Below, in pieces: positions 5,375 to 23,575 of a stretch of DNA of 23,575 nucleotides. Source of the DNA: a virus; IMG/VR virus record IMGVR_UViG_3300037088_000036, positions 1 to 23,575 of that record; one strand, written 5' to 3'. The position numbers and the translations under genes are program-made. How positions within the stretch are numbered: position 1 is the first letter of the stretch; each line of letters opens with the position of its first letter. The notes beneath the pieces were generated by a model, which saw nothing but the letters and a program-made list of their open reading frames with translations, ran no database searches and had not been told where the DNA came from.

Positions 5375-6106
5375 GTGGCAATCGACTATTGGAAACTGAC
5401 CAAAGAGTTCTCCCGCGGGGACGTCGTTCAAAAGATAGACGTCTACGATGGGGATCTCTCACCTTACGTGGGAACAGTTACGGCTGTCCACAAAGGACTT
5501 GGCGTTCTCGATGTTCAATGGCCATTTGGCAACGAACGGGTTTTCCCGGATGATGTGGTAAGGGTTGCTCCGGAGTTCATCCGGTACTTACCTCCTCAAT
5601 TCGATCAGAGCTATGTCACGGTTGAGATTGAGAGGGCCAGGAAGGAAGCTTCTTCCTCTTCCCTCTGGAGGACTAGTTATTTCCAGCCCGCAATCTACCG
5701 AGACTTAGCCAGGTACTGGCACAAGGGAGCAAGCGAGGTCATCGCTTATGACGACCTCTATCGGTTGCTTGCTCCCAACGTGGACGATGCTGCCCTCCGA
5801 GATGAAGTTTCTAAGTTCTACCGTTTTGCCAAGAATGCGGGTGAGCTTAGGATTCAGAGTCACATGAGGAAGTCAGCCGCCTACTGGGTAGCTCAGAATC
5901 GTCAGTACCGAGCTACAGGGCAAGACATCAAAGCCGGTAAGCCCGCCTGCCCCAAGTGTGCCAATGCTATGCGTTGGGCCACCTACAAGATGCACGAAGG
6001 TGCCAAGCACAAGATCTTCGCTTGCCCCAAGTGCCTCTACCTTATTGATCCTGTATCCGTTCTTGGGCCCACAGGTGAACCCCATAATTGGCTTGGTGGA
6101 ATCTAA
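5375..6106 (+). CDS. SH3-like N-terminal domain plus C-terminal zinc ribbon protein
   Basis: 243 aa from GTG 5375, with a purine-rich AAGGTAGGG just upstream as ribosome binding site. Residues 14-64 contain GDVV...GTVTAVHKGLGVLDVQWP and FPDDVVRV, the pattern of a small beta-barrel (KOW or SH3-like) domain. The middle is helical. The C-terminus holds CPKC at 192-195 and CPKC at 217-220, a four-cysteine zinc ribbon. Both domain types are common in nucleic-acid-binding or assembly proteins, but the specific role is unknown. It lies between the unknown pre-capsid protein and the protease and ends three bases before the protease ATG, so it belongs to the head-assembly operon. Confidence 0.8.
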   Translation: MAIDYWKLTKEFSRGDVVQKIDVYDGDLSPYVGTVTAVHKGLGVLDVQWPFGNERVFPDDVVRVAPEFIRYLPPQFDQSYVTVEIERARKEASSSSLWRTSYFQPAIYRDLARYWHKGASEVIAYDDLYRLLAPNVDDAALRDEVSKFYRFAKNAGELRIQSHMRKSAAYWVAQNRQYRATGQDIKAGKPACPKCANAMRWATYKMHEGAKHKIFACPKCLYLIDPVSVLGPTGEPHNWLGGI

Positions 6107-6108
6107 GT

Positions 6109-9057
6109 ATGGCGTTCTCTAAGTATGCTAAAGCTCGAGTCACCAATGCGACTATCAATCAAGCCGTTTGGGAGGATATTAGAGCTAAAGCTAGCATACC
6201 AGCGCCCACTTTCGATCTTAGAAAAGCCTCCCAGGTCGTACTACAGCAGTATGACCCGGGGCAGTACTTATTGAGTCACTGCACCATCATTGCGTCAGTT
6301 GATACTGAGACCCCAGTTGGGATGCCTACTGGCAAACAGATGTTTGACGGTACTCAGATTGACCGTAAATACCCAGACTTCTACATTACTGCTGGTACAA
6401 CCAAATATATCAACAACAATTGCTTCGTTTCAGGAACCCAGATCCTTATGGGAGATGGAACTGAGAAGTCTATTGAGGATGTTAAAGTTGGGGATAGAGT
6501 AGTCTCCCATACTGGAAATGTTCGTCGGGTAATTGAAACCTTCATAAAACCATTTAATGGTTACTTGAGTGTAATCCGTAGGCTTGGTGATCAGCGAGAT
6601 CTAGAGGTAACTCCAGAGCACCCGCTATACGCTATGACCCCTGCACAGACTTGTGCTTGCGGATGTGGCACAAGATTAAACCGGGGTTCTCGTAAAGCTG
6701 CCATCCATCGATTCCAAGACTATGTTCGTGGCCATGGTTGTAAGGAGCGCAAGAACCCAAAACCAGACTACACCTGGGTCTCAGCCGGTTTCCTAAATAA
6801 GGGTGACTTCTTATCCACCCCCCGCCTTCAAGGTGAGGTAGTTGAGTCCGGTATTACTCTAGGGAAGGCACGCTTGCTTGGGTACTACTTAGCTGAGGGG
6901 TACTACCATAGGCAAAAGCGTAACCGCCTTTCTAAAAAGTACCTAGGATCTTCATCTGAAGTCTCAGTGCCTGTCGGAATTGACTTTGCACTGTGTCTTG
7001 ACGAAACAGATACCCTAGTTTCAGAGATCCAACGACTCCTTCAAGAAGAATTCGGAGTTGGTTCTTCAGTCAATCAAGTGAGTGCTAATGGGGTTAGTGT
7101 TTATAGTCAACAATCTGTTGAGTTAGTATCATTTTTCAAATCTCACGCCACTGAGTATGCCAAGTCAAAGAAGTTAGCTGAGCATGTTCTTAGATGGCCA
7201 ATCCACCTCCAAAGGGAACTTGTTCAGGGTTGGCTTGAAGGCGACGGTTGTGTTCAATCAACTGCTGGTGGTTGGGTAACAGTCACTTCAGCCTCCTCAG
7301 ATTTAATCTCCCAAATGCATATTATCCTTGGTCGTTTAGGGGTATTTGCAACTAGGGGTTATACTAGAAGTTGTGGGCGTAAGCGAGTTCGTGAGGCTAA
7401 TGGTGGGTTTGTTGTTACTAATGATCCAACAAAAGTATGTCATACCTACCACCTTCAGATTGGATCTGTTCATGCTGAGGCCCTGATGGGTGGTTCTTTC
7501 TTGAGTGCCCTATTTTCTAGGAGTACCCAGGGTAGAAAGAAGAACTCTTTGGGTTTTAGGGTTCGTTCTGATAGAACAACGTTCCCGATCAGATCAGTAA
7601 CCAAGAGATTTTTTGATGGTTCCGTATACAACTTCGAGACAGAAGAGGATCACTCTTATGTAGCGAATGGGGTTGCGGTTCATAATTGCGATGCTTGGGA
7701 GAGGAAGCTACTCATGTCGTCTTTCCGCACCTTCATTGGTGGGGAAAACTACGTTGAGCACATTCAAATACCTGAGCTTTCCAAGGGAAAGATCATTGAT
7801 GCCGCCGCTAGGGATATCGGTGACTCAGTTTATGTAGACATCTTGATTGCCACTGATAGGAAGCATCGGGAGCTCATAGCTGCCATTTTAGATGGAACTT
7901 TGAGCACTTTGTCGATGGGGTGCCATGTCGGCCACACGACCTGCACCAAGTGTGGCAACGTCGCAGAGGATGAAACTAACCTTTGCAGGCACATTAAATA
8001 TGAGAAGGGTCAGTGGTTCATAGATGCTTCTGGAACTCGTCGAAAGGTTGCAGAACTCTGTGGGCACATAAGTGCCGAGCCAGGTTCGGTCAAGTTCATC
8101 GAGGGTTCTTGGGTTGCCAACCCTGCCTTCGTCGGGGCTGTCCTTAATAAGATACTCGACCCCAAGACGGCCCTCATGGCTGAGCAAGCCAGGCAGAAGA
8201 TTCAGGTAGCCTTCTCTCGTCCGGTTGAGGTCTTTGATGTCAACACTATGCAGAAGGCCGCGAGGGTAATGACCCGGAGGAACGTGAAGGCCATCCCAGG
8301 GGACCACCTGGCATACCTTTATAGTGGCCCCTCCCTAGGGTCGCTCAAAGCCCCTCCGGCGTTCTCCGGTAGCGAGCGGGCTTCTAAGTCTCTCGAGGAG
8401 AGACTCAATCAAATTAATCAGGCTTATGAGCAGTCTAATGTACATTCTGCTCAACAGCAAGATTTTCCAGGGCAATCTGACTTTACAGACTCAGCCCCGA
8501 GTGCCGCCCCCACAGAGGATAAAGAGCACCCATTTAAGAAGACGATCGATGATCTGTATGGGGCAATCGTTGATGAGGTTACTAAGAAGGTCAAGAAGGA
8601 TCTTGCTGATGCTGGTAAGGATAAGGATCAGTCTGTAATAGATCCGAACCATTCAAATGAATCCCTCATCAAATCGGCACTCAAGTACCCTAAGTGGATT
8701 GAGAGAGCTCAGGTAGTAGCAGCTAACATTAAAGATGGAAGAGCTGCGAAAAGCGTGCTGGCAGGCTTGATTCTACATGATGTAGGTGGGTGGGAAGCCG
8801 TAGCTCAAGCAAAAAGATTTAGGGGCAGTGAGATTCTTGTTATGTGCCGACTTCTGGAGAGGACTGTCAAGAAGTCCTCTTTGGCAGGTGACACTCGAAT
8901 TTACAAGACCGTTATCGCAGTAGGCGGAACGAGATCATATCCAAATGTAGATGATTACCTTACTGCTTGTAGTGAGGTAATGGGACGAACCCCAATAGTT
9001 TCTGAGAGAGCTCAACTAATCGAAAAAGGTAAGCTGTTCTCCCTCGGTATCCAATGA
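6109..9057 (+). CDS. Capsid maturation (prohead) protease precursor with intein
   Basis: 982-aa precursor; ATG 6109 has GGTGGA eight bases upstream and is preferred over TTG 6088, which lies inside the previous gene. Residues 105-526 are an intein; splicing would leave about 560 aa. The joined extein reads NNNC-DAW, then FIGGENYVEHIQ...GKIIDA with His551, and LDGTLSTLSMGC with Ser602. This matches the HK97-like serine protease pattern of a His in a 'DH..G.V' context and a Ser in an 'LSxG' strand. A Cys/His cluster follows the Ser directly (C605, C612, C615, C626, H628), probably binding zinc. The part after about residue 690 is a helical, charged extension that may carry a scaffold-like or targeting function. 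Such enzymes cleave scaffold and capsid N-termini in the prohead. Confidence 0.8.
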   Translation: MAFSKYAKARVTNATINQAVWEDIRAKASIPAPTFDLRKASQVVLQQYDPGQYLLSHCTIIASVDTETPVGMPTGKQMFDGTQIDRKYPDFYITAGTTKYINNNCFVSGTQILMGDGTEKSIEDVKVGDRVVSHTGNVRRVIETFIKPFNGYLSVIRRLGDQRDLEVTPEHPLYAMTPAQTCACGCGTRLNRGSRKAAIHRFQDYVRGHGCKERKNPKPDYTWVSAGFLNKGDFLSTPRLQGEVVESGITLGKARLLGYYLAEGYYHRQKRNRLSKKYLGSSSEVSVPVGIDFALCLDETDTLVSEIQRLLQEEFGVGSSVNQVSANGVSVYSQQSVELVSFFKSHATEYAKSKKLAEHVLRWPIHLQRELVQGWLEGDGCVQSTAGGWVTVTSASSDLISQMHIILGRLGVFATRGYTRSCGRKRVREANGGFVVTNDPTKVCHTYHLQIGSVHAEALMGGSFLSALFSRSTQGRKKNSLGFRVRSDRTTFPIRSVTKRFFDGSVYNFETEEDHSYVANGVAVHNCDAWERKLLMSSFRTFIGGENYVEHIQIPELSKGKIIDAAARDIGDSVYVDILIATDRKHRELIAAILDGTLSTLSMGCHVGHTTCTKCGNVAEDETNLCRHIKYEKGQWFIDASGTRRKVAELCGHISAEPGSVKFIEGSWVANPAFVGAVLNKILDPKTALMAEQARQKIQVAFSRPVEVFDVNTMQKAARVMTRRNVKAIPGDHLAYLYSGPSLGSLKAPPAFSGSERASKSLEERLNQINQAYEQSNVHSAQQQDFPGQSDFTDSAPSAAPTEDKEHPFKKTIDDLYGAIVDEVTKKVKKDLADAGKDKDQSVIDPNHSNESLIKSALKYPKWIERAQVVAANIKDGRAAKSVLAGLILHDVGGWEAVAQAKRFRGSEILVMCRLLERTVKKSSLAGDTRIYKTVIAVGGTRSYPNVDDYLTACSEVMGRTPIVSERAQLIEKGKLFSLGIQ
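6421..7686 (+). mobile_element. Intein with LAGLIDADG homing endonuclease inside the protease
   Basis: 422-residue intein within the protease frame. It starts at Cys105 of the precursor (CFVSGTQILMGDGT, block A), has the block B TPEH with His171, and ends at VHN (His525-Asn526) followed by Cys527 as +1 nucleophile. All splicing residues are present. Between the splicing blocks lie two LAGLIDADG-type helices, LLGYYLAEG (residues 256-264) and LVQGWLEGDG (371-380), each with the acidic metal-binding residue (E263, D379), so the endonuclease looks intact. Just after block B is a Cys-rich insert, CACGCG (182-187) with further His and Cys downstream, resembling a small zinc-binding module. The insertion lies 24 residues before the proposed catalytic His. 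Confidence 0.93.
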
Positions 9058-9102: not shown

Positions 9103-10533
9103 ATGACCCGCGAGCGCTCAACCTGGAACATTCACCAAATTGCCAAGCAGGCGGGTCTAAAACTTGCCGACCCGTACACCATGAACCAAGACCACGTCAA
9201 TCAGCAGCCAGCGGCTGATGAGTACGTGATTGGGGATCCTTCGACCTTCGCCGAAGACATCCACCCCTCTACTACTACCTGGGAGGCTGAGTACTCCGGG
9301 GGTCAGGTTAAGAGGAACGAGATCGGCATGCCCGAGATGAGGAACGACACATTCAATCATCCCGAGAAGACGGCCTCTGAAGAAGTTCTCACCAAGAAGG
9401 CAGCCCTCTGCGTAGCCATCGCTCGTTCGATGCTGCCGAAGACGGCTTCCAACCTCGACATCGAAGAGCAGTCCATCTCTCTCATGCACCTACCAGATGC
9501 TGAAGTGATGTCGACCTATACTCGCCTTGCAGCCAAGCAGGATCAAGATCAGCAACAGCAGCAAGTTCAGGCAGCCAAGCAGGATCAAGATCAGCAGCAG
9601 CAACAGGTTCAGGCAGCTCAGCAACAAGACCAACAGGGTCAGCAGCAGCAAGAACAGAAGCAAGCTGCCAAGCAGGATCAAGATCAGCAACAGCAGGTTC
9701 AAGCGGCTGTGATCAATGACCCGCGGTCTACCGCTGTGAGGGCTTTAGTTGGTCAGCAACAAGACCAACAGGGTCAGCAAGAGCAAGAACAGAAGCAAGC
9801 TGCTCAGCAACAAGACCAACAGGGTCAGCAAGAGCAAGAACAGAAGCAAGCCGGTCAGGAGCAGCAGGCTCAGATGCAACAGCAGCTAGCTCAGATGATT
9901 CAGCAAGCTCAGCAGCAGCTGGAACAACTACAAGCTCAATCTCAGCAGCAACAGGCGGGCCAGCAGCAGCAGCAAGCCGGTCAGCAACAGCAACAGGCTC
10001 AGATGCAGCAACAGAGTCAGGCCCAGCAGGTTGCACAAGCAGTGCAGCAAGCGATTCAGCAGGGTCAGGATCCAGTTGCGGCTGCCGATGCTTGCATGGC
10101 TCAGTACCAGCAGCAACAGGGTGGACAGCAGCAACAGCAGGGCAATGAAGGTGAGCTCATTGACCAGATGTTGGCACAGCAGACCCAGCAGCAACAGCCG
10201 ATGGCCAACATGGACATCCAGCTCGACACCCCCACAATGGATGTCGGAGAAGTCCAACTAGGCCCGGAAGATGACATGCTGATGCAGCTCTTCGCCAATG
10301 AAGAGACTCAGCAGGCTCAGCAAGCCCAAGAAGGTGGACAGCAACAGCAGAAGCAAGCTCATGCTGTCCGCACCGCCTCGATGAGGACTGTCGGTACAGT
10401 TCCAAGTCAGGGTGTGAGCAGGATCGGTGGAGGCTCAACAGCAACCGCCGGTGCCACCAGCAGTAATCTGTCCTCGCTTTGGAGTTCGGCTCCTGACGTA
10501 AGGGAAGCTTTCGGAATCCCAACTAATCAGTGA
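9103..10533 (+). CDS. Gln-rich repeat protein, candidate head scaffold
   Basis: 476 aa, ATG 9103 with a GAAAGGGA ribosome binding site. Residues 1-140 are ordinary and partly helical. From about 140 to 420 the protein is dominated by glutamine in QQDQQGQQEQEQKQA-like units, broken once by a non-Gln island (VINDPRSTAVRALVG, DNA about 9706-9752). The tail is Ser/Thr/Gly-rich. Scaffolding proteins are typically helical, low in aromatic residues and encoded between protease and major capsid protein, exactly the position here; this is the basis for the call. No sequence family is recognised, and a long Gln-rich virion or core protein is the main alternative. Confidence 0.6.
   Translation: MTRERSTWNIHQIAKQAGLKLADPYTMNQDHVNQQPAADEYVIGDPSTFAEDIHPSTTTWEAEYSGGQVKRNEIGMPEMRNDTFNHPEKTASEEVLTKKAALCVAIARSMLPKTASNLDIEEQSISLMHLPDAEVMSTYTRLAAKQDQDQQQQQVQAAKQDQDQQQQQVQAAQQQDQQGQQQQEQKQAAKQDQDQQQQVQAAVINDPRSTAVRALVGQQQDQQGQQEQEQKQAAQQQDQQGQQEQEQKQAGQEQQAQMQQQLAQMIQQAQQQLEQLQAQSQQQQAGQQQQQAGQQQQQAQMQQQSQAQQVAQAVQQAIQQGQDPVAAADACMAQYQQQQGGQQQQQGNEGELIDQMLAQQTQQQQPMANMDIQLDTPTMDVGEVQLGPEDDMLMQLFANEETQQAQQAQEGGQQQQKQAHAVRTASMRTVGTVPSQGVSRIGGGSTATAGATSSNLSSLWSSAPDVREAFGIPTNQ
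9529..9854 (+). repeat. Tandem DNA repeats coding the Gln-rich segment
   Basis: Two repeat families alternate. A 42-base unit beginning GCAGCCAAGCAGGATCAAG occurs at 9529 and 9571, with a partial copy near 9664. A 51-base unit beginning TCAGCAACAAGACC occurs at 9753 and 9804, with a related copy near 9618. Both units are multiples of three, so copy-number change would keep the frame. The two 51-base copies are almost identical, which indicates recent duplication. Confidence 0.85.
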
Positions 10534-10668: not shown

Positions 10669-11304
10669 ATGCCCATGTACGGACAAAGCAGCGGTGATTT
10701 CAAGGAAACTAGTGGTAGAATTCAGCTGTTCCACGTTGTTACCCGCAATTCAGTGGGTGCACTTGCAGCCGACGCCTTCACTCAGTTAAACCCTGCACTC
10801 ATCACAGCTGCAGGAGCGAAGAGCTCCACCCTAGTCGGTATCACCAAAGTTGGTGTTCTCGGTGGTTCAATTGCGTTTACTCGCAACTCAGGCAATAACC
10901 TCACTGGTGGCCCAGTCGGAACTCCGGCTGCGAACACTGGTGCCCTATCCATCACTGGTGACAAGGGTGTGAGGCCTCTCGGATTCTTTATCAACGACGC
11001 CGTTGGTAATGCCTTTGAGAACACTCCAGGGCCAGCATCTGGTCGTGGCCCCTATGTCTGTGGATCAGGATCTTGCATCGGCTTGACCATCTACGAGACA
11101 GTGTCTCAGGTCGATGGGTCTACACCCATTGCATGGGCTGTTGGTGATCTCGTTTACGCGAGTGTCAACGGTCTTGCAACAAACAACGCCGTTGAATCCT
11201 ACGAGTACATCGCAGGTTCAACAGCTACAAACACAATCCTCGGCATTGTCAAGGCTATCCCCAATGCTGACACACCCATGCTCGTGATTGATCTCCGGAT
11301 CTGA
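10669..11304 (+). CDS. Small beta-rich protein, possible capsid decoration protein
   Basis: 211 aa, ATG 10669 with a good AAGGAG (10654-10659) nine bases upstream. The composition is rich in Gly, Ala, Thr, Val and Asn and poor in charge, with alternating hydrophobic residues typical of a beta fold. There is one Cys pair, CGSGSC, around residues 128-133, in a likely loop. It lies directly upstream of the major capsid gene, 25 bases away, the place where lambda-like and many large phages encode a head decoration or stabilising protein. That position, the size and the strong ribosome binding site are the only support; no family was recognised. A spike or fibre subunit is the alternative. Confidence 0.6.
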   Translation: MPMYGQSSGDFKETSGRIQLFHVVTRNSVGALAADAFTQLNPALITAAGAKSSTLVGITKVGVLGGSIAFTRNSGNNLTGGPVGTPAANTGALSITGDKGVRPLGFFINDAVGNAFENTPGPASGRGPYVCGSGSCIGLTIYETVSQVDGSTPIAWAVGDLVYASVNGLATNNAVESYEYIAGSTATNTILGIVKAIPNADTPMLVIDLRI

Positions 11305-11329
11305 ACGAAGAAAGGCTAAGGACACGAAC

Positions 11330-12199
11330 ATGGTATCCAACGAAATTAAGCAGCAGATCATCAGCGAGTATATCAAGACGGCAGCAGGCCGTGCAAAGCT
11401 CGCAGCTTCCATGATTCAGCCCCTCAGGCTGCGTCGTGACTACACAGCTGTAGGTCGCAAGACCTTCCTTGTGGAGCAACTGCCAGACGGTGCCCTCCCG
11501 ATCTACGACAAGGATCCGGACGTCACTGCCTACGTGGTTGGTGAAGAAGGTGAAAACATCCTGGCGATCCAGAAGCCTCGTAGGGTCATCTTCCCGCTGT
11601 TCGAGATTGCCTCGAACCCCGAGATCCCCCTTACGCAGATCAAGGAACGTCGGTTTGACTTGATCGAACGCGCTCAGGACTTGGCGAAAGCCCAGATCCA
11701 GGCCGCGGAAGACGAGCGTGTGTTCGCAGTTCTAGACAGCATTGCTGTCTCTGGCTTCGACACTCTCGGTCAGACCAACCCCGACATCAACGTTGTGGCA
11801 CCTATCTCTCCGAGCGTCCTCGCGGATGCATTTGCAGAGGTAGAACGTCATGATCTTCGTGTAGCTCGTATTTACATGAATGCTACCGATTATGCGGATA
11901 TCCGCAAGTTCGGTAGGGACATCCTCGACATCGAGAGCCAAGCCGTTCTGCTCAAGACCGGTCTGCAAGCGAACCTCTGGGGCGCACAGATCATCACGAG
12001 CCGTCTGGTTCCTGCAGGCTTCGTGTACATCGCGGCCGAGCCGGAAAACTTCGGCAGGTTCCCAGTCCGCACTGAATTGACAGTGCTCTCAGCTGACGAT
12101 CCAAAGGCCAGGACAATTGGTTTCAGCTGTTTTGAAAATGTCGGGATTGGGGCGTTCAACCCCCGAGGTCTTACCAGGCTACTGGTAACCCGCGTATAA
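11330..12199 (+). CDS. Major capsid protein (HK97-fold type)
   Basis: 289 aa from ATG 11330, with TAAGGA seven bases upstream; an ATG at 11288 lies inside the preceding gene and is not favoured. The order fits a major capsid protein: helical N-terminus, a long central helix (about residues 100-130, Ala/Glu/Lys/Gln-rich), then alternating helices and strands (NATDYADIRKFGRDI, LWGAQIITSRLVPAG, YIAAEP) and a beta-rich end. The phrase 'LWG..I..S..VP.G..Y' is typical of this fold's A domain, where strand, turn and 'v..g' recur. It ends 24 bases before a strong terminator. Length is at the short end of the usual range. Alternative: a second capsid-like subunit. Confidence 0.8.
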   Translation: MVSNEIKQQIISEYIKTAAGRAKLAASMIQPLRLRRDYTAVGRKTFLVEQLPDGALPIYDKDPDVTAYVVGEEGENILAIQKPRRVIFPLFEIASNPEIPLTQIKERRFDLIERAQDLAKAQIQAAEDERVFAVLDSIAVSGFDTLGQTNPDINVVAPISPSVLADAFAEVERHDLRVARIYMNATDYADIRKFGRDILDIESQAVLLKTGLQANLWGAQIITSRLVPAGFVYIAAEPENFGRFPVRTELTVLSADDPKARTIGFSCFENVGIGAFNPRGLTRLLVTRV

Positions 12200-12223: not shown

Positions 12224-12265
12224 CAGAAGGCCGGCCCCCGAAAGGGAGTCGGCCTTCTGGTTTTT
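12224..12265 (+). terminator. Rho-independent terminator after major capsid gene
   Basis: CAGAAGGCCG (12224-12233) pairs perfectly with CGGCCTTCTG (12250-12259); the loop can form a further CCC/GGG contact. The stem is followed by GTTTTT. It closes the head-assembly transcript. Confidence 0.92.
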
Positions 12266-12274
12266 AGAGTAATA

Positions 12275-12316
12275 AACCTAAGTAAACTTGACAATCAAGT
12301 TTACTTAGGTTAGGCT
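12275..12316 (+). promoter_or_regulatory. Promoter inside a perfect 16-bp inverted repeat (likely operator)
   Basis: AACCTAAGTAAACTTG (12275-12290) and its exact complement (12296-12311) flank the 5-base spacer ACAAT. A consensus -35 TTGACA (12288-12293) spans the centre, and 17 bases later TAGGCT (12311-12316) fits the TANNNT form of a -10 box. Transcription would start at about 12323, at or next to the GTG start 12324, so the mRNA would be leaderless. A dimeric protein bound to the repeat would cover the -35 region and block the promoter. The lack of a T run argues against a terminator. Confidence 0.65.
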
Positions 12317-12323
12317 TTCTCCT

Positions 12324-14258
12324 GTGAGGAAGAATGCCTTCAAAAAATCTGGGATGACCCCTGAACGACTTAGGGAGTTATACACAAGTGGGAGTACCGA
12401 TGTGGATATTGGACTCCTACTTGGCATCTCTGACTCAGCGGTAGCTTACTTCCGAAAGAAGTTTGGTATTCAAAAGAAGGGCAGTGCTCTATCCTCTTTG
12501 AGCCCTGATGTCCTCAGGGAGTTGTACCAATCTCATAGCGATTTTGAGATAGCGGAGATGTATCATGTTGACAGAGCTGCGGTTCGTGCTCGCCGTAGCA
12601 GGGATGGAATTGAGGCAATCTCGAAAAGTGATAGAGTTAGGAAGGATGAAGAGAACCCTTCGTTGATTGAAACCAACCCAGAACCTCAAATAAATCCACC
12701 CATTGGTATAGAAGTAGTTGAACCCCCGAAGGTTCCATACAAGAAAACCGAAGACTACAAGAAAGAGGATGCTGACCGGGCACGTCTAGCACGTCAACGG
12801 TACCGAGAAGATCATCCTGCAAAGACTACTAGAACCTTTACTTGCAAGTCGTGTGGTAAGCCTTGGTCTACAGAAGAGAAGGGAAACTTCAGTACTTGCC
12901 CTCAATGTAAAGCTAACGCTGAAAGCGAGAAACGAACCAAGACCTGCCCTTATTGTAAGGGTACTTTTCTAGATACCACAACGCATTTATCCCAGACCTA
13001 CTGTAACGTTGAGTGTCGCCGGAGGGCTAAATTAGAGAGGTTGGGTCAGCTCCCTCCAGGTGGGTTTCTTGCTGACCAAGAATTAACCTGCCCTATTTGT
13101 CAGAAATCCTTCACACCTGTGCGGGGAAACCAGGTGTACTGTGCCGATGAGTGTCGTCTTGGGGCTTACTCTGAGGAAAAATTGGAATCTAGATCCAAGG
13201 AGTGCCTCGATACAGGTCAGCTATTCTTTGATGACTCCCCGAAGAACAACCGAAAGTTCGTTTCAAGTCAATCTCGTGAGAGATTGGGTATTAAGTTAGA
13301 CCCTACGAGGGAACCAAGCCTATCACCTAGATTAGGTGAGCGTCGAAGGGGGCATCTGCGATCTGGTTTAGGTGGGCGTATTGACGATATCAAGACCCTG
13401 AAGAAGGCAACAACCTGCTGGTGGGGTCGAGCATCTGAAGTTATTTTCTCTGTGTATCGAGCAAAGGCCAAAGATCTAGTACTGGAATTTGGAAATCGAA
13501 GTCCTTATGACTTTGAGGATCCAGAGTTTGGACGGATTGAGGTTCGTGGTACTACTGAGCGAGACTCACCCCAAGGTCGACCTATGTGGCTTTTCGTAGT
13601 TCATGGACTTAGGCAATCTTGTGACTACGTCTTATTTGTTGGTTACTCAAGAGACAAGAATCGAGTCGAACATCTGTGGTTCATCCCCTCTTCAGATATA
13701 CCAGAAGCCCTTGTTCGATTTTGCCCGAGTAGCTCCGAATATCGTTGGGCGCAATGGGACGTATCTCAGAAGTGGGGCCTTATGTTGGCGGATAGTACGC
13801 TGAAAGATCTTCTTGACCTACCTGAGCCAGAGAGATCACCTGATCGTTATGCTTGGATGGATGATCCGAGTCAGTTTAGTACTGAAGCACCGGGTCACAG
13901 GGGTAGAAAGGGTGAGTTTATGTATCGGTTGCGATACCCAACGAGTAAGGATTTGAATCGAGAGCTCGGTTCAGGAGCCCCCTACGACTTTGAGGACTTT
14001 GATGGGATCAAAGTAAATGTAAAGGTCTCCAAACGAAAGAGAGAGCTGGGTCACTCAGATAAGTGGTCTTTTTGCTTGGGTGCCAGTAGACTGCATCAGT
14101 GCGACATTTACTCATGTCTCTGTCTTGATTCTGACGAGAAAACAATCATTGCTGAGTATAGGATTCCGGTAAGTGCGTGGGGTGACCGGAGAACCATTCA
14201 CATTTACGTTTCAGGTGGGCAATGGGATCAATTTAGAGTTACCCCCACCCCCGAATGA
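12324..14258 (+). CDS. HTH / triple zinc ribbon / tandem PD-(D/E)XK-like nuclease protein
   Basis: 644 aa from GTG 12324; ATG 12354 is an alternative start. Residues 11-90 hold two related helix-turn-helix units (each with LRELY...S..(D/E)I). Three Cys4 zinc ribbons follow: C174/C177/C192/C195, C208/C211/C227/C231 and C256/C259/C273/C277. Two copies of one domain then occur, around residues 365-455 and 525-620, each with G-R-x(1,2)-E, KDL, a PYDFED motif (394-399; 553-558), a basic strand, W.F, a CD(Y/I) motif and a late IP. This matches the pattern of intron-associated PD-(D/E)XK nucleases (PYD ... (E/Q)xK ... DY ... IP). In copy 1 the catalytic strand reads IEVR (Arg for Lys); in copy 2 it reads VNVK (Asn for the acid). 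It is probably a DNA-binding homing-type nuclease or a regulator derived from one. Confidence 0.75.
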   Translation: MRKNAFKKSGMTPERLRELYTSGSTDVDIGLLLGISDSAVAYFRKKFGIQKKGSALSSLSPDVLRELYQSHSDFEIAEMYHVDRAAVRARRSRDGIEAISKSDRVRKDEENPSLIETNPEPQINPPIGIEVVEPPKVPYKKTEDYKKEDADRARLARQRYREDHPAKTTRTFTCKSCGKPWSTEEKGNFSTCPQCKANAESEKRTKTCPYCKGTFLDTTTHLSQTYCNVECRRRAKLERLGQLPPGGFLADQELTCPICQKSFTPVRGNQVYCADECRLGAYSEEKLESRSKECLDTGQLFFDDSPKNNRKFVSSQSRERLGIKLDPTREPSLSPRLGERRRGHLRSGLGGRIDDIKTLKKATTCWWGRASEVIFSVYRAKAKDLVLEFGNRSPYDFEDPEFGRIEVRGTTERDSPQGRPMWLFVVHGLRQSCDYVLFVGYSRDKNRVEHLWFIPSSDIPEALVRFCPSSSEYRWAQWDVSQKWGLMLADSTLKDLLDLPEPERSPDRYAWMDDPSQFSTEAPGHRGRKGEFMYRLRYPTSKDLNRELGSGAPYDFEDFDGIKVNVKVSKRKRELGHSDKWSFCLGASRLHQCDIYSCLCLDSDEKTIIAEYRIPVSAWGDRRTIHIYVSGGQWDQFRVTPTPE

Positions 14259-14284: not shown

Positions 14285-14926
14285 ATGTCTCTTACAGAGA
14301 TACCGGGGATCCTGTCCAAGAGGGCTGTGGAGGAACACAGAAAGCTTGCGGACGGGTACCAAAAGACGCTCGACAGGGTGAATCAAGCCCTCAACAACCC
14401 GACGCTCCCCACGATGCATCAACCTGAGAGCCCGTACCGGGCTCTCAAGGAAGCTGAGCATTATGCTCTCGGGGGAGTTGTTCTTCATGAGTTATTCTTT
14501 GGGAATATCTCGGCTAATGTTGTTAGAATTCAGATTCTTCTTGAGGTTGAACGCTGCATTGAAAGCACCTGGGGGAGCCTCGAGAATTTCAGGGCTGAAC
14601 TTAGAGCTGCGTGCCTTTCTGCGAGGGGCTGGGCAGTTCTAAGTTTGGATCCTTTCGGTAGGCTACGTATTTTGATGCTTGACTCGCACGATATTGGTCC
14701 TGTAATGGGTTCGGTACCCATTTTGGTCATTGATGTGTTCGAGCACGCCTATTGGATGGACTACGGAGCTGACCGGGCATCCTACGTAGAAGGAATACTA
14801 AATCACGTGGATTGGATGGAAGTTAACCGTCGTTTCAGGAAGTGGGCCGACTACTCTGGTGTCATCGGAGAACTTTTTCCACTTGAACGGCGAGTAGCCA
14901 GGAAGTTTGCCTCCCGTCTGGTGTAG
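14285..14926 (+). CDS. Fe/Mn-type superoxide dismutase
   Basis: 213 aa, ATG 14285. Fe/Mn superoxide dismutases convert superoxide to peroxide and oxygen. The four metal ligands are all present: His18 in EEHRKL...Y, His68 in GGVVLHELFF (the family's H..LFW position), and Asp150 and His154 in DVFEHAY, the signature D.WEHAY with Phe for Trp. Also typical are the WGS..NF...L block around residues 98-106, GWAVL, PILVIDVF, and the end block (NHVDWMEVNRRF). The family's outer-sphere Gln of NQD is His135 here (SHD), as in mycobacterial-type enzymes, which may affect metal choice. The first gate His is absent. Nothing suggests inactivation. It lies in a cassette with a DNA-binding nuclease-like protein and HU. 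Confidence 0.88.
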   Translation: MSLTEIPGILSKRAVEEHRKLADGYQKTLDRVNQALNNPTLPTMHQPESPYRALKEAEHYALGGVVLHELFFGNISANVVRIQILLEVERCIESTWGSLENFRAELRAACLSARGWAVLSLDPFGRLRILMLDSHDIGPVMGSVPILVIDVFEHAYWMDYGADRASYVEGILNHVDWMEVNRRFRKWADYSGVIGELFPLERRVARKFASRLV

Positions 14927-18344: not shown

Positions 18345-19214
18345 ATGACTTCAACCTCTTTCAAAGGGTATGTTTACCTAATCACAAATCTTGTGAGTGG
18401 GAAGAAGTATGTTGGTTGTACCATTACTTCACTGAAACGCCGCTGGGTTCAACATCTTAGCTCAGCAAGAAAAGATAGCCCTATGGCTATTCATAGGGCT
18501 ATTAGAAAGTATGGAGAGGCTAACTTTGAGATCAAGTGTCTTGAAACTAGGCCTACTCGTGATGAGATGTTGGAAGCCGAGATTAATCAAATTGAGGCTC
18601 ATGCTTGCACTGTCCCCAACGGTTACAACTTGACTAGAGGCGGTGAGGGGGTCGACTTTTCTGTCTCAGAAGCTCGTGAGAAGTTGATGCGGGGAGCCGG
18701 TAAGAGAAAAGCCGATCCTAATTGGCATAAAGCGTGTTCAGATGGATCTCGTAGGCGTTCGGAAAATCCTGAGTGGAAGAAGAATGTGACTGAGGCGGCT
18801 AAAAGAAGATCTGAGGATCAAGAGTGTCAAGAGAAGCTCAGGGCTGGTATTAAAAAAAGAACTGCTGACCCGGGGTGGCGTAGGAATGTTGCTGATGGGG
18901 CCAGAAAAAGGGCTGCTGATTTGTCTTATAGAGAAGCTTGTTCACGGAGTGCTCAGAAAAAGCTATCTGATCCTGAATGGCGTAAGGCTAACCTAGAGCA
19001 GCTTCGAGTACAACATGCTGATCCAGATTGGCAGAAGTCAAATCTGGATGGTTTGCGTAAAGGGAGAGAGATCCTGTCAGCAATGGTCATTGCCAGAGAT
19101 GCCAACCTACCATTAAAGACTAGACTTCAACGAGCCCGACGTCGTGAGCAGAATCGAAAGTATAAAGCTGATAAAATGGCTAGAACACGGTTAGCCATAG
19201 ACATTAGGCAGTGA
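18345..19214 (+). CDS. GIY-YIG homing endonuclease with 17-residue repeat array
   Basis: 289 aa, ATG 18345. Free-standing GIY-YIG enzymes cut alleles lacking the gene and spread by repair. Motifs: GYVY (8-11) and KYVG (21-24) for the GIY..YIG strands, catalytic Arg in LKRRW (30-34), Glu in EAEINQIE (about 85-92), and NGYNLTRGGEG. Residues 128-229 are six full copies of a 17-residue unit, each shaped basic/acidic...R(R/K)....DP.W, with partial units at both ends. It resembles NUMOD-like DNA-binding modules of such enzymes, and the number of copies is high. Its TGA overlaps the next start as GTGA. It lies between two unknown genes, with no sign of an intron, so it is a free-standing invader. 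Confidence 0.9.
   Translation: MTSTSFKGYVYLITNLVSGKKYVGCTITSLKRRWVQHLSSARKDSPMAIHRAIRKYGEANFEIKCLETRPTRDEMLEAEINQIEAHACTVPNGYNLTRGGEGVDFSVSEAREKLMRGAGKRKADPNWHKACSDGSRRRSENPEWKKNVTEAAKRRSEDQECQEKLRAGIKKRTADPGWRRNVADGARKRAADLSYREACSRSAQKKLSDPEWRKANLEQLRVQHADPDWQKSNLDGLRKGREILSAMVIARDANLPLKTRLQRARRREQNRKYKADKMARTRLAIDIRQ
18726..19031 (+). repeat. Six tandem 51-bp units in the GIY-YIG gene
   Basis: The six in-frame units encode residues 128-229 with strictly constant 17-residue spacing but diverged DNA. The conserved protein pattern is K/R-rich start, small residues, a basic triplet, then S/A-(D/E)-P-x-W at the end. The array appears old rather than recently expanded. Confidence 0.8.
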
Positions 19215-22440: not shown

Positions 22441-23575
22441 GTGTATCTTGTCAACAACCTAAAAGGAGACCAAGGAAACCAGGGGGATCGAGGATTTCAG
22501 GGCCCTTTAGGATTTCAGGGGAGCCAGGGAAATCAAGGGAACCAGGGTGACGTCGGATCGACTGGGGTTCAGGGAGCTCAAGGTAATCAGGGTTGGCAAG
22601 GGACTGGAGTTCAAGGTCCTGAGGGGTTTCAAGGAAATCAGGGGAACCAGGGGTTTCAGGGAAATCAGGGAAACCAAGGTCTTGAGGGAGATCAAGGAAA
22701 TCAGGGAGTTCAAGGTAACCAGGGGAGCCAAGGTGACGTCGGATCAACTGGAGCCCAAGGAAATCAGGGGAACCAAGGCAACCAAGGGTCGCAAGGTAAT
22801 CAGGGTCGGCAAGGGAACCAGGGGAATGTTGGTTCGACCGGCAACCAGGGCGCACAAGGAGTCCAGGGGAACCAAGGTGACGTTGGATCTACAGGGTCGC
22901 AAGGTAATCAGGGTCGGCAAGGGAACCAGGGGAATGTTGGTTCTACTGGTGCTCAGGGGAACCAGGGTACTCAGGGGAACCAAGGTTGGCAAGGGACTGG
23001 AGCACAAGGTCCTGAGGGGTTTCAAGGGAACCAGGGAGCTCAAGGGAACCAGGGTGATGTTGGATCAACTGGGACTCAAGGGAACCAGGGGAACCGAGGT
23101 GTCCAAGGGAACCAGGGGAGTCAGGGGAACCAGGGGAGCGTTGGTCTAACTGGATTTCAAGGTGATCAGGGTGACCCAGGTGTTGTAGGGGTTCAAGGTT
23201 ACCAGGGTCGGCAAGGAAACCAAGGAAATCAGGGCAACCAAGGATCGATTGGGTTTCAAGGAAACCAAGGAAATACTGGCAGCCAAGGTTACCAAGGTTG
23301 GCAAGGTCGTCAAGGAAACCAAGGAAACCAGGGGAGCGTTGGTTCTACGGGAGCTCAAGGGAACCAAGGTTGGCAGGGGAATCAAGGATCACAGGGGAAT
23401 CAGGGAAACCAAGGTACTGGTGTCCAAGGCCCTAGTGGAGTTCAGGGCAATCAGGGGAATCAAGGGGACATAGGTTTAACTGGTGCTCAGGGAGTTCAGG
23501 GCGCTCAGGGAAACATTGGAGCGACTGGAGTCCAGGGAAATCAGGGGAACCAAGGAAACCAAGGGAGTGTTGGTA
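22441..23575 (+). CDS. Collagen-like fibre protein, N-terminal part (runs off window)
   Basis: GTG 22441 is the first possible start after the in-frame stop at 22420-22422 and has a strong GGGAGG (22430-22435) five bases upstream. The frame stays open to the window end (378 codons). After only eight residues the protein becomes Gly-X-Y repeats, mostly with Gln at Y and Asn, Phe, Ser or other residues at X (GNQ, GFQ, GSQ), interspersed with GDVGSTG-like units. Such triplets form trimeric collagen-like shafts in phage tail fibres and bacterial surface proteins. There are few prolines at Y. Gly-Thr-Gly interruptions recur at 22600, 22993 and 23413, each before (V/A)QGP(E/S)G. The C-terminal part is outside the window. 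Confidence 0.9.
   Translation, partial: MYLVNNLKGDQGNQGDRGFQGPLGFQGSQGNQGNQGDVGSTGVQGAQGNQGWQGTGVQGPEGFQGNQGNQGFQGNQGNQGLEGDQGNQGVQGNQGSQGDVGSTGAQGNQGNQGNQGSQGNQGRQGNQGNVGSTGNQGAQGVQGNQGDVGSTGSQGNQGRQGNQGNVGSTGAQGNQGTQGNQGWQGTGAQGPEGFQGNQGAQGNQGDVGSTGTQGNQGNRGVQGNQGSQGNQGSVGLTGFQGDQGDPGVVGVQGYQGRQGNQGNQGNQGSIGFQGNQGNTGSQGYQGWQGRQGNQGNQGSVGSTGAQGNQGWQGNQGSQGNQGNQGTGVQGPSGVQGNQGNQGDIGLTGAQGVQGAQGNIGATGVQGNQGNQGNQGSVG
22786..22943 (+). repeat. Perfect 50-bp direct repeat in the collagen-like gene
   Basis: 22786-22835 and 22894-22943 are identical, 108 bases apart, so 108 bases (36 codons) separate corresponding points. Many shorter repeats surround them. The perfect identity at the DNA level, including silent sites, points to recent duplication or ongoing recombination in the fibre shaft. 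Confidence 0.85.

Follow-up and report, generated by a model that had tools for sequence, protein, structure and literature searches.

In the literature that we searched, PD-(D/E)XK homing endonucleases are represented by a single intron-encoded enzyme, I-Ssp6803I from a cyanobacterial group I intron (PDB 2OST). I-Ssp6803I is a small tetramer (PMC3943268, PMC1995217). F-CphI, which we also considered as a possible enzyme of this fold, uses an Endo VII motif (PMC6083498). Other described systems touch on the present locus from the side of restriction. The BisI family enzymes NhoI and Eco15I are homodimeric, require methylated GCNGC and are not mobile elements, and carry a non-acidic third catalytic residue (QxK); replacement of the third acid by Asn or Gln is compatible with equal metal binding and active enzymes, while Eco15I depends on each one of its Glu, Asp, Gln and Lys residues (PMC11347163). 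Single-chain PvuII (PDB 3KSK) contains two PD-(D/E)XK domains per chain and is an engineered protein. In phages, homing endonuclease genes located near capsid genes and subject to domain shuffling have been described, and CapR, which is derived from a homing endonuclease, represses capsid expression (PMC10448857).

The DNA analyzed here (the window) is a whole IMG/VR record of 23,575 bases from a large tailed (giant-type) phage, and its features described below between 11288 and 14258 lie on the plus strand, apart from one palindrome. A portal gene and an intein-bearing gene are followed by the major capsid gene (11288-12199; PF05065, 8.9e-07; phrog_2522, 2.8e-53), whose product shares 92% identity with its counterpart in contig L003 and 83% with the one in phage LR745208 (485 kb). 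Behind the capsid gene lies a terminator-like hairpin with a 16-nt inverted repeat (12224-12259), and similar hairpins are found 3' of the capsid gene in many relatives. Just behind it starts a genomic slot, occupied in the window by an ORF at 12324-14258 that encodes a protein of 644 aa, here proposed to be a homing endonuclease; the coordinates reported in an initial annotation of this DNA, with the start (GTG at 12324) and the stop codon, were correct. That annotation had also described a duplicated helix-turn-helix (HTH) unit and three zinc ribbons, and both descriptions hold. In the full-length model, aa 13-46 and aa 61-93 each form a tri-helical unit, corresponding to HTH unit 1 at aa 11-50 (12354-12473; helices 13-21, 26-33 and 37-46) and HTH unit 2 at aa 59-105 (12498-12638; helices 61-70, 73-80 and 84-93). 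Three complete Cys4 sets follow, namely C174, C177, C192 and C195 (12843-12908), C208, C211, C227 and C231 (12945-13016) and C256, C259, C273 and C277 (13089-13154), the first and third recognized from sequence and alignment and the second from sequence and a match to zf-CGNR (3.7e-04) below the cut-off, and a degenerate fourth ribbon is present. The region containing both HTH units (aa 4-110) and the ribbons are 41% and 35% identical, respectively, to a LAGLIDADG-methyltransferase protein encoded in the same slot of LR745208. Judged by this similarity, the DNA-binding parts are common to the window protein and accepted LAGLIDADG homing endonucleases. Free-standing LAGLIDADG_2 phage homing endonucleases such as those of LR745208, L051 and L069 resemble the window protein in their slot, HTH pair and zinc ribbons, but slot proteins of this type have a LAGLIDADG nuclease domain, in many cases together with a fused N6/N4 methyltransferase.

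The C-terminal part of the window protein consists of two PD-(D/E)XK domains, copy 1 (aa 362-482, 13407-13769; E372, D396, E406 and R408, placed with the help of an alignment) and copy 2 (aa 523-640, 13890-14243; E531, D555, N565 and K567). That these domains are tandem homologs, as had been claimed, was confirmed by several comparisons. The copies, which are approximately 26% identical to each other in the window protein, matched in a one-against-one BLASTP comparison (E 3e-8); Smith-Waterman alignment of the two copies of one protein, carried out for four proteins, scored 11-17 sd above 500 shuffles in every case; and the family profiles of the two copies, compared with hhalign, matched with a probability of 98.6% (E 1e-15). 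In a phylogenetic tree, first copies were separated from second copies and each group was monophyletic (98/97), with copy 2 of L031 forming a long branch. Because first and second copies are separate, the duplication predates the sampled lineages, i.e., it is, on this tree, ancestral to the PD protein lineages.

An AlphaFold model of the tandem region was built from five sequences (mean pLDDT 73.8); its pTM of 0.54 makes the placement of the copies relative to each other unreliable. Each copy has an alpha-beta restriction-endonuclease core, and fold searches assigned both to the PD-(D/E)XK fold, as the initial annotation had supposed: copy 1 (model residues 11-157) matched NhoI with Z 11.6 and copy 2 (model residues 184-303) matched I-Ssp6803I with Z 10.5 (rmsd 2.5 A over 109 aa), both far above the bulk of the fold-search rows. 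Each copy is thus a PD-(D/E)XK fold in the predicted structure. I-Ssp6803I, with which the window protein would also have a homing role in common, differs in that the window protein is free-standing and carries two nuclease domains per chain together with HTH units and ribbons. A match to the intron-associated family PF11645 was not found up to E 10, and the nuclease domains had no match among Pfam, NCBIfam and PADLOC families; two PHROG families of unknown function (13389 and 28936) matched copy 2. When a nine-sequence profile was compared with PDB sequences, Eco15I and NhoI ranked first with weak scores (E 0.16 and 0.24), and their QIK/QVK aligned with the third motif, NVK in copy 2. This tolerance of a non-acidic third residue (QxK there, NxK in the window) and the fold of copy 1 may link the window protein to the BisI family, but NhoI and Eco15I lack such HTH units and ribbons. 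The top Foldseek match spanning both copies was single-chain PvuII; the window tandem differs from it in being natural. BFVD models of giant-virus proteins, from Klosneuvirus, Aureococcus virus and Hyperionvirus (the last named C2H2-type), also gave fold matches of approximately 280-320 columns over both copies, but with low TM-scores over the whole length.

Scans of viral contigs with the window protein or single copies yielded no relative, and a search with a two-copy alignment, like three further alignments, detected L003 only. With the capsid protein as query, 80 loci were retrieved, and PD relatives were present at L028, L030/L031 and L076 among them. There are thus four independent relatives (the near-identical L030 and L031 being counted once), all located directly behind the gene for the major capsid protein in related large phages; including the window, five PD proteins are available, one of them truncated. 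No PD domain was found elsewhere in 50 of the records behind the capsid loci, several of which are 200-510 kb long, and genome contigs, plasmids and PADLOC contained no relatives. A weak match (E 3) in Salmonella phage BP12A was attributed to chance, since the gene concerned encodes a plain HNH protein. The architectures vary: the window protein is HTH2-ZnR3-PD2, L003 has ZnR-PD2 followed by a separate HTH-LAGLIDADG gene, and L028 and L031 have ZnR-PD2 fused to an N6/N4 methyltransferase.

When the active sites of nine domains were compared (two copies each from the window, L003, L028 and L031 and one from L076), all nine had the motif-I Glu and the PD Asp, whereas the third position is D, E, N or S and the basic position K or R. 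The third motifs of copy 1 and copy 2 are EVR/NVK in the window, DVR/DVK in L003, DVK/NVK in L028 and SVK/NVR in L031, and L076 has SVK in copy 1 with copy 2 cut off. Arg takes the place of Lys in copy 1 of two proteins (window and L003) and in copy 2 of a third (L031), and at least one Lys copy is kept in every complete PD protein, which with four proteins is a pattern rather than a result. The initial annotation had proposed that each copy of the window protein bears a different catalytic substitution. The motifs themselves are as claimed, with PYDFED in both copies, IEVR (E406/R408) in copy 1 and VNVK (N565/K567) in copy 2, but Asn at the third position, as in copy 2, is a known working variant and only the Lys-to-Arg change in copy 1 is a real deviation. 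We had considered the Asn as a private loss, since copy 2 of L003 has DVK; this idea was dropped because L028 and L031 have Asn as well. As Asn or Gln is tolerated at the position of the third acid, copy 2 (NVK) is plausibly a working catalytic site, and the Arg of copy 1 appears to be the sole serious departure from the motif; copy 1 may be slow or dead.

The slot behind the capsid gene is a frequent site of such genes. Of 63 non-redundant capsid clusters, 31 have a match to the slot elements as the next gene after the capsid gene, and in the other 32 the space is empty or otherwise filled; the elements comprised LAGLIDADG/HTH proteins, LAGLIDADG-methyltransferase proteins and PD proteins. 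Pfam analysis of ten slot proteins detected LAGLIDADG_2 in all ten; six also matched N6_N4_Mtase, and the cut-off was exceeded in four of these. Two clean pairs of occupied and empty sites, both involving LAGLIDADG members, define the insertion: in L012 (occupied) and L011 (empty), DNA homology extends to +71 in both and resumes at +1047 vs +84, and in the pair L014/L023 it spans the terminator to about +71 and resumes past the element. No close empty allele was found for the window, whose homology to its nearest neighbor L009 ends at +3 and resumes 2.67 kb further on; its PD gene is intergenic and leaves the capsid gene intact. At the level of gene content and DNA alignment, these data show the slot to be a landing site for apparently selfish DNA-cutting genes that exchange parts.

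One protein combines an N6/N4-type DNA methyltransferase with a nuclease of the LAGLIDADG or PD-(D/E)XK type at each of eight loci, all behind the capsid gene (L009:9070-11373, L051:8070-10784, L065:3329-5617, L067:8070-9974, L069:8040-10523, L077:8027-9934, L028:8098-10686 and L031:7989-10277). Motif I (DPCAG-like) and a TSPPY-like motif IV of the fused methyltransferases are intact. Neither the window protein nor the other slot ORFs of the window contain a methyltransferase, in contrast to L028 and L031.

Upstream of the PD gene, a promoter pattern TTGACA-N17-TAGGCT (12288-12316) ends 7 nt before the GTG codon, a leaderless arrangement. In 7/31 slot elements, TTGAC-N17-19-TANNNT lies within a few bases upstream of the start codon, compared with 0/31 empty sites and 10/1550 random stretches, which points to leaderless expression of slot elements from their own promoter. 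Across the -35 box and spacer lies the palindrome already noticed in the initial annotation, which indeed spans 37 bp (12275-12311, not assigned to either strand) with perfect 17-nt arms (12275-12291 and 12295-12311). This operator-like sequence may be a candidate operator, but it is absent from other slot elements and, being private to the window, tells little about the family.

Considering the slot and the HTH and ribbon modules that these elements have in common, the exchange of nuclease types between otherwise similar proteins and the conserved catalytic residues, we favor the inference that the window protein acts as a free-standing homing endonuclease, encoded in the slot behind the capsid terminator of a large phage (probability roughly 0.7). 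Through its HTH units and ribbons, such a protein would recognize a long target within or next to the capsid gene in related phages. The two PD domains might act as a single-chain pseudo-dimer, each cutting one strand, which is the simplest use of two domains, and repair from the element-bearing genome would then copy the gene into the empty site. With copy 2 probably working and copy 1 maybe slow or dead, a nick or an asymmetric cut is possible. The initial annotation had suggested a composite active site in which the two copies complement each other, and the occurrence of Lys in one copy and Arg in the other in the window, L003 and L031 would fit such an arrangement. However, complementation is needless when each copy has its own Glu, Asp, third residue capable of binding metal and basic residue, L028 combines DVK with NVK, and residue losses are not reciprocal across relatives, all of which make a composite site extremely improbable.

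It had also been suggested that the protein is a catalytically dead regulator. A DNA-binding regulator domesticated from a homing endonuclease, which binds the palindrome of its own promoter and/or the capsid gene via HTH units and ribbons and does not cut, would accord with the palindrome overlying the -35 box and spacer, with the presence of Arg in copy 1 and with the precedent of CapR. We consider this unlikely, because the catalytic Glu and Asp have remained invariant in nine domain copies of 22-49% identity, copy 2 retains a full plausible active site and the palindrome is not common to the relatives. A nuclease kept for its benefit, which would cut related phage or host DNA in a restriction-like or competitor-excluding manner while the methyltransferase of sibling proteins shields self (a one-chain restriction-modification system), is suggested by the presence of PD-(D/E)XK and N6/N4 methyltransferase domains in one chain in L028 and L031 and by the restriction enzymes NhoI, Eco15I and PvuII being the nearest folds. 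The window protein itself is without the methyltransferase, PADLOC gave no match, and the fixed slot is common to LAGLIDADG elements, which fits homing; this explanation thus seems quite unlikely. Returning to the homing endonuclease, we offer with considerable doubt an extension that combines both ideas: the window protein might be a stripped member of a group of self-protecting homing elements, i.e., mosaics of LAGLIDADG or a natural single-chain PD-(D/E)XK pair with a methyltransferase that shields the capsid-locus target of the carrier, a hybrid of homing and restriction-modification.

The fused methyltransferases of sibling proteins are the strangest feature of these loci, and no description of a methyltransferase fused to a LAGLIDADG or PD nuclease was found in the open-licence literature searched. 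If the favored reading is true, the PD-(D/E)XK fold, mostly a restriction tool, also powers selfish phage genes, and the tandem would be a natural counterpart to single-chain restriction enzymes. The sibling fusions make it testable whether carriers of homing elements are protected by methylation rather than by target interruption.

Several other features of the window were observed. Directly behind the PD gene, a gene at 14285-14926 encodes a divergent Fe/Mn superoxide dismutase (Sod_Fe_C, 1.5e-24), which is absent from the slots of the fetched relatives and has distant matches only (approximately 30% identity) in other phage records, many of them short and unannotated. An intein that matches LAGLIDADG_3 (6.8e-11) and Hint domains interrupts the gene at 6088-9057. 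Upstream of the capsid genes, a very glutamine-rich ORF (9103-10533) has a counterpart in L003, and three tandem paralogous ORFs of approximately 175 aa occupy 288-1872 (starts at 288, 821 and 1354), a similar protein being encoded at L002:11437-12003. Near the end of the window, the region 22451-23473 is repetitive with a collagen-like look (repeated Gly-x-y-type DNA) and several open frames. The gene at 18345-19214 encodes a GIY-YIG homing endonuclease (9.2e-11) whose C-terminal part contains internal repeats, and relatives of this gene are present at varying nearby positions in L009, L023, L042 and L058.
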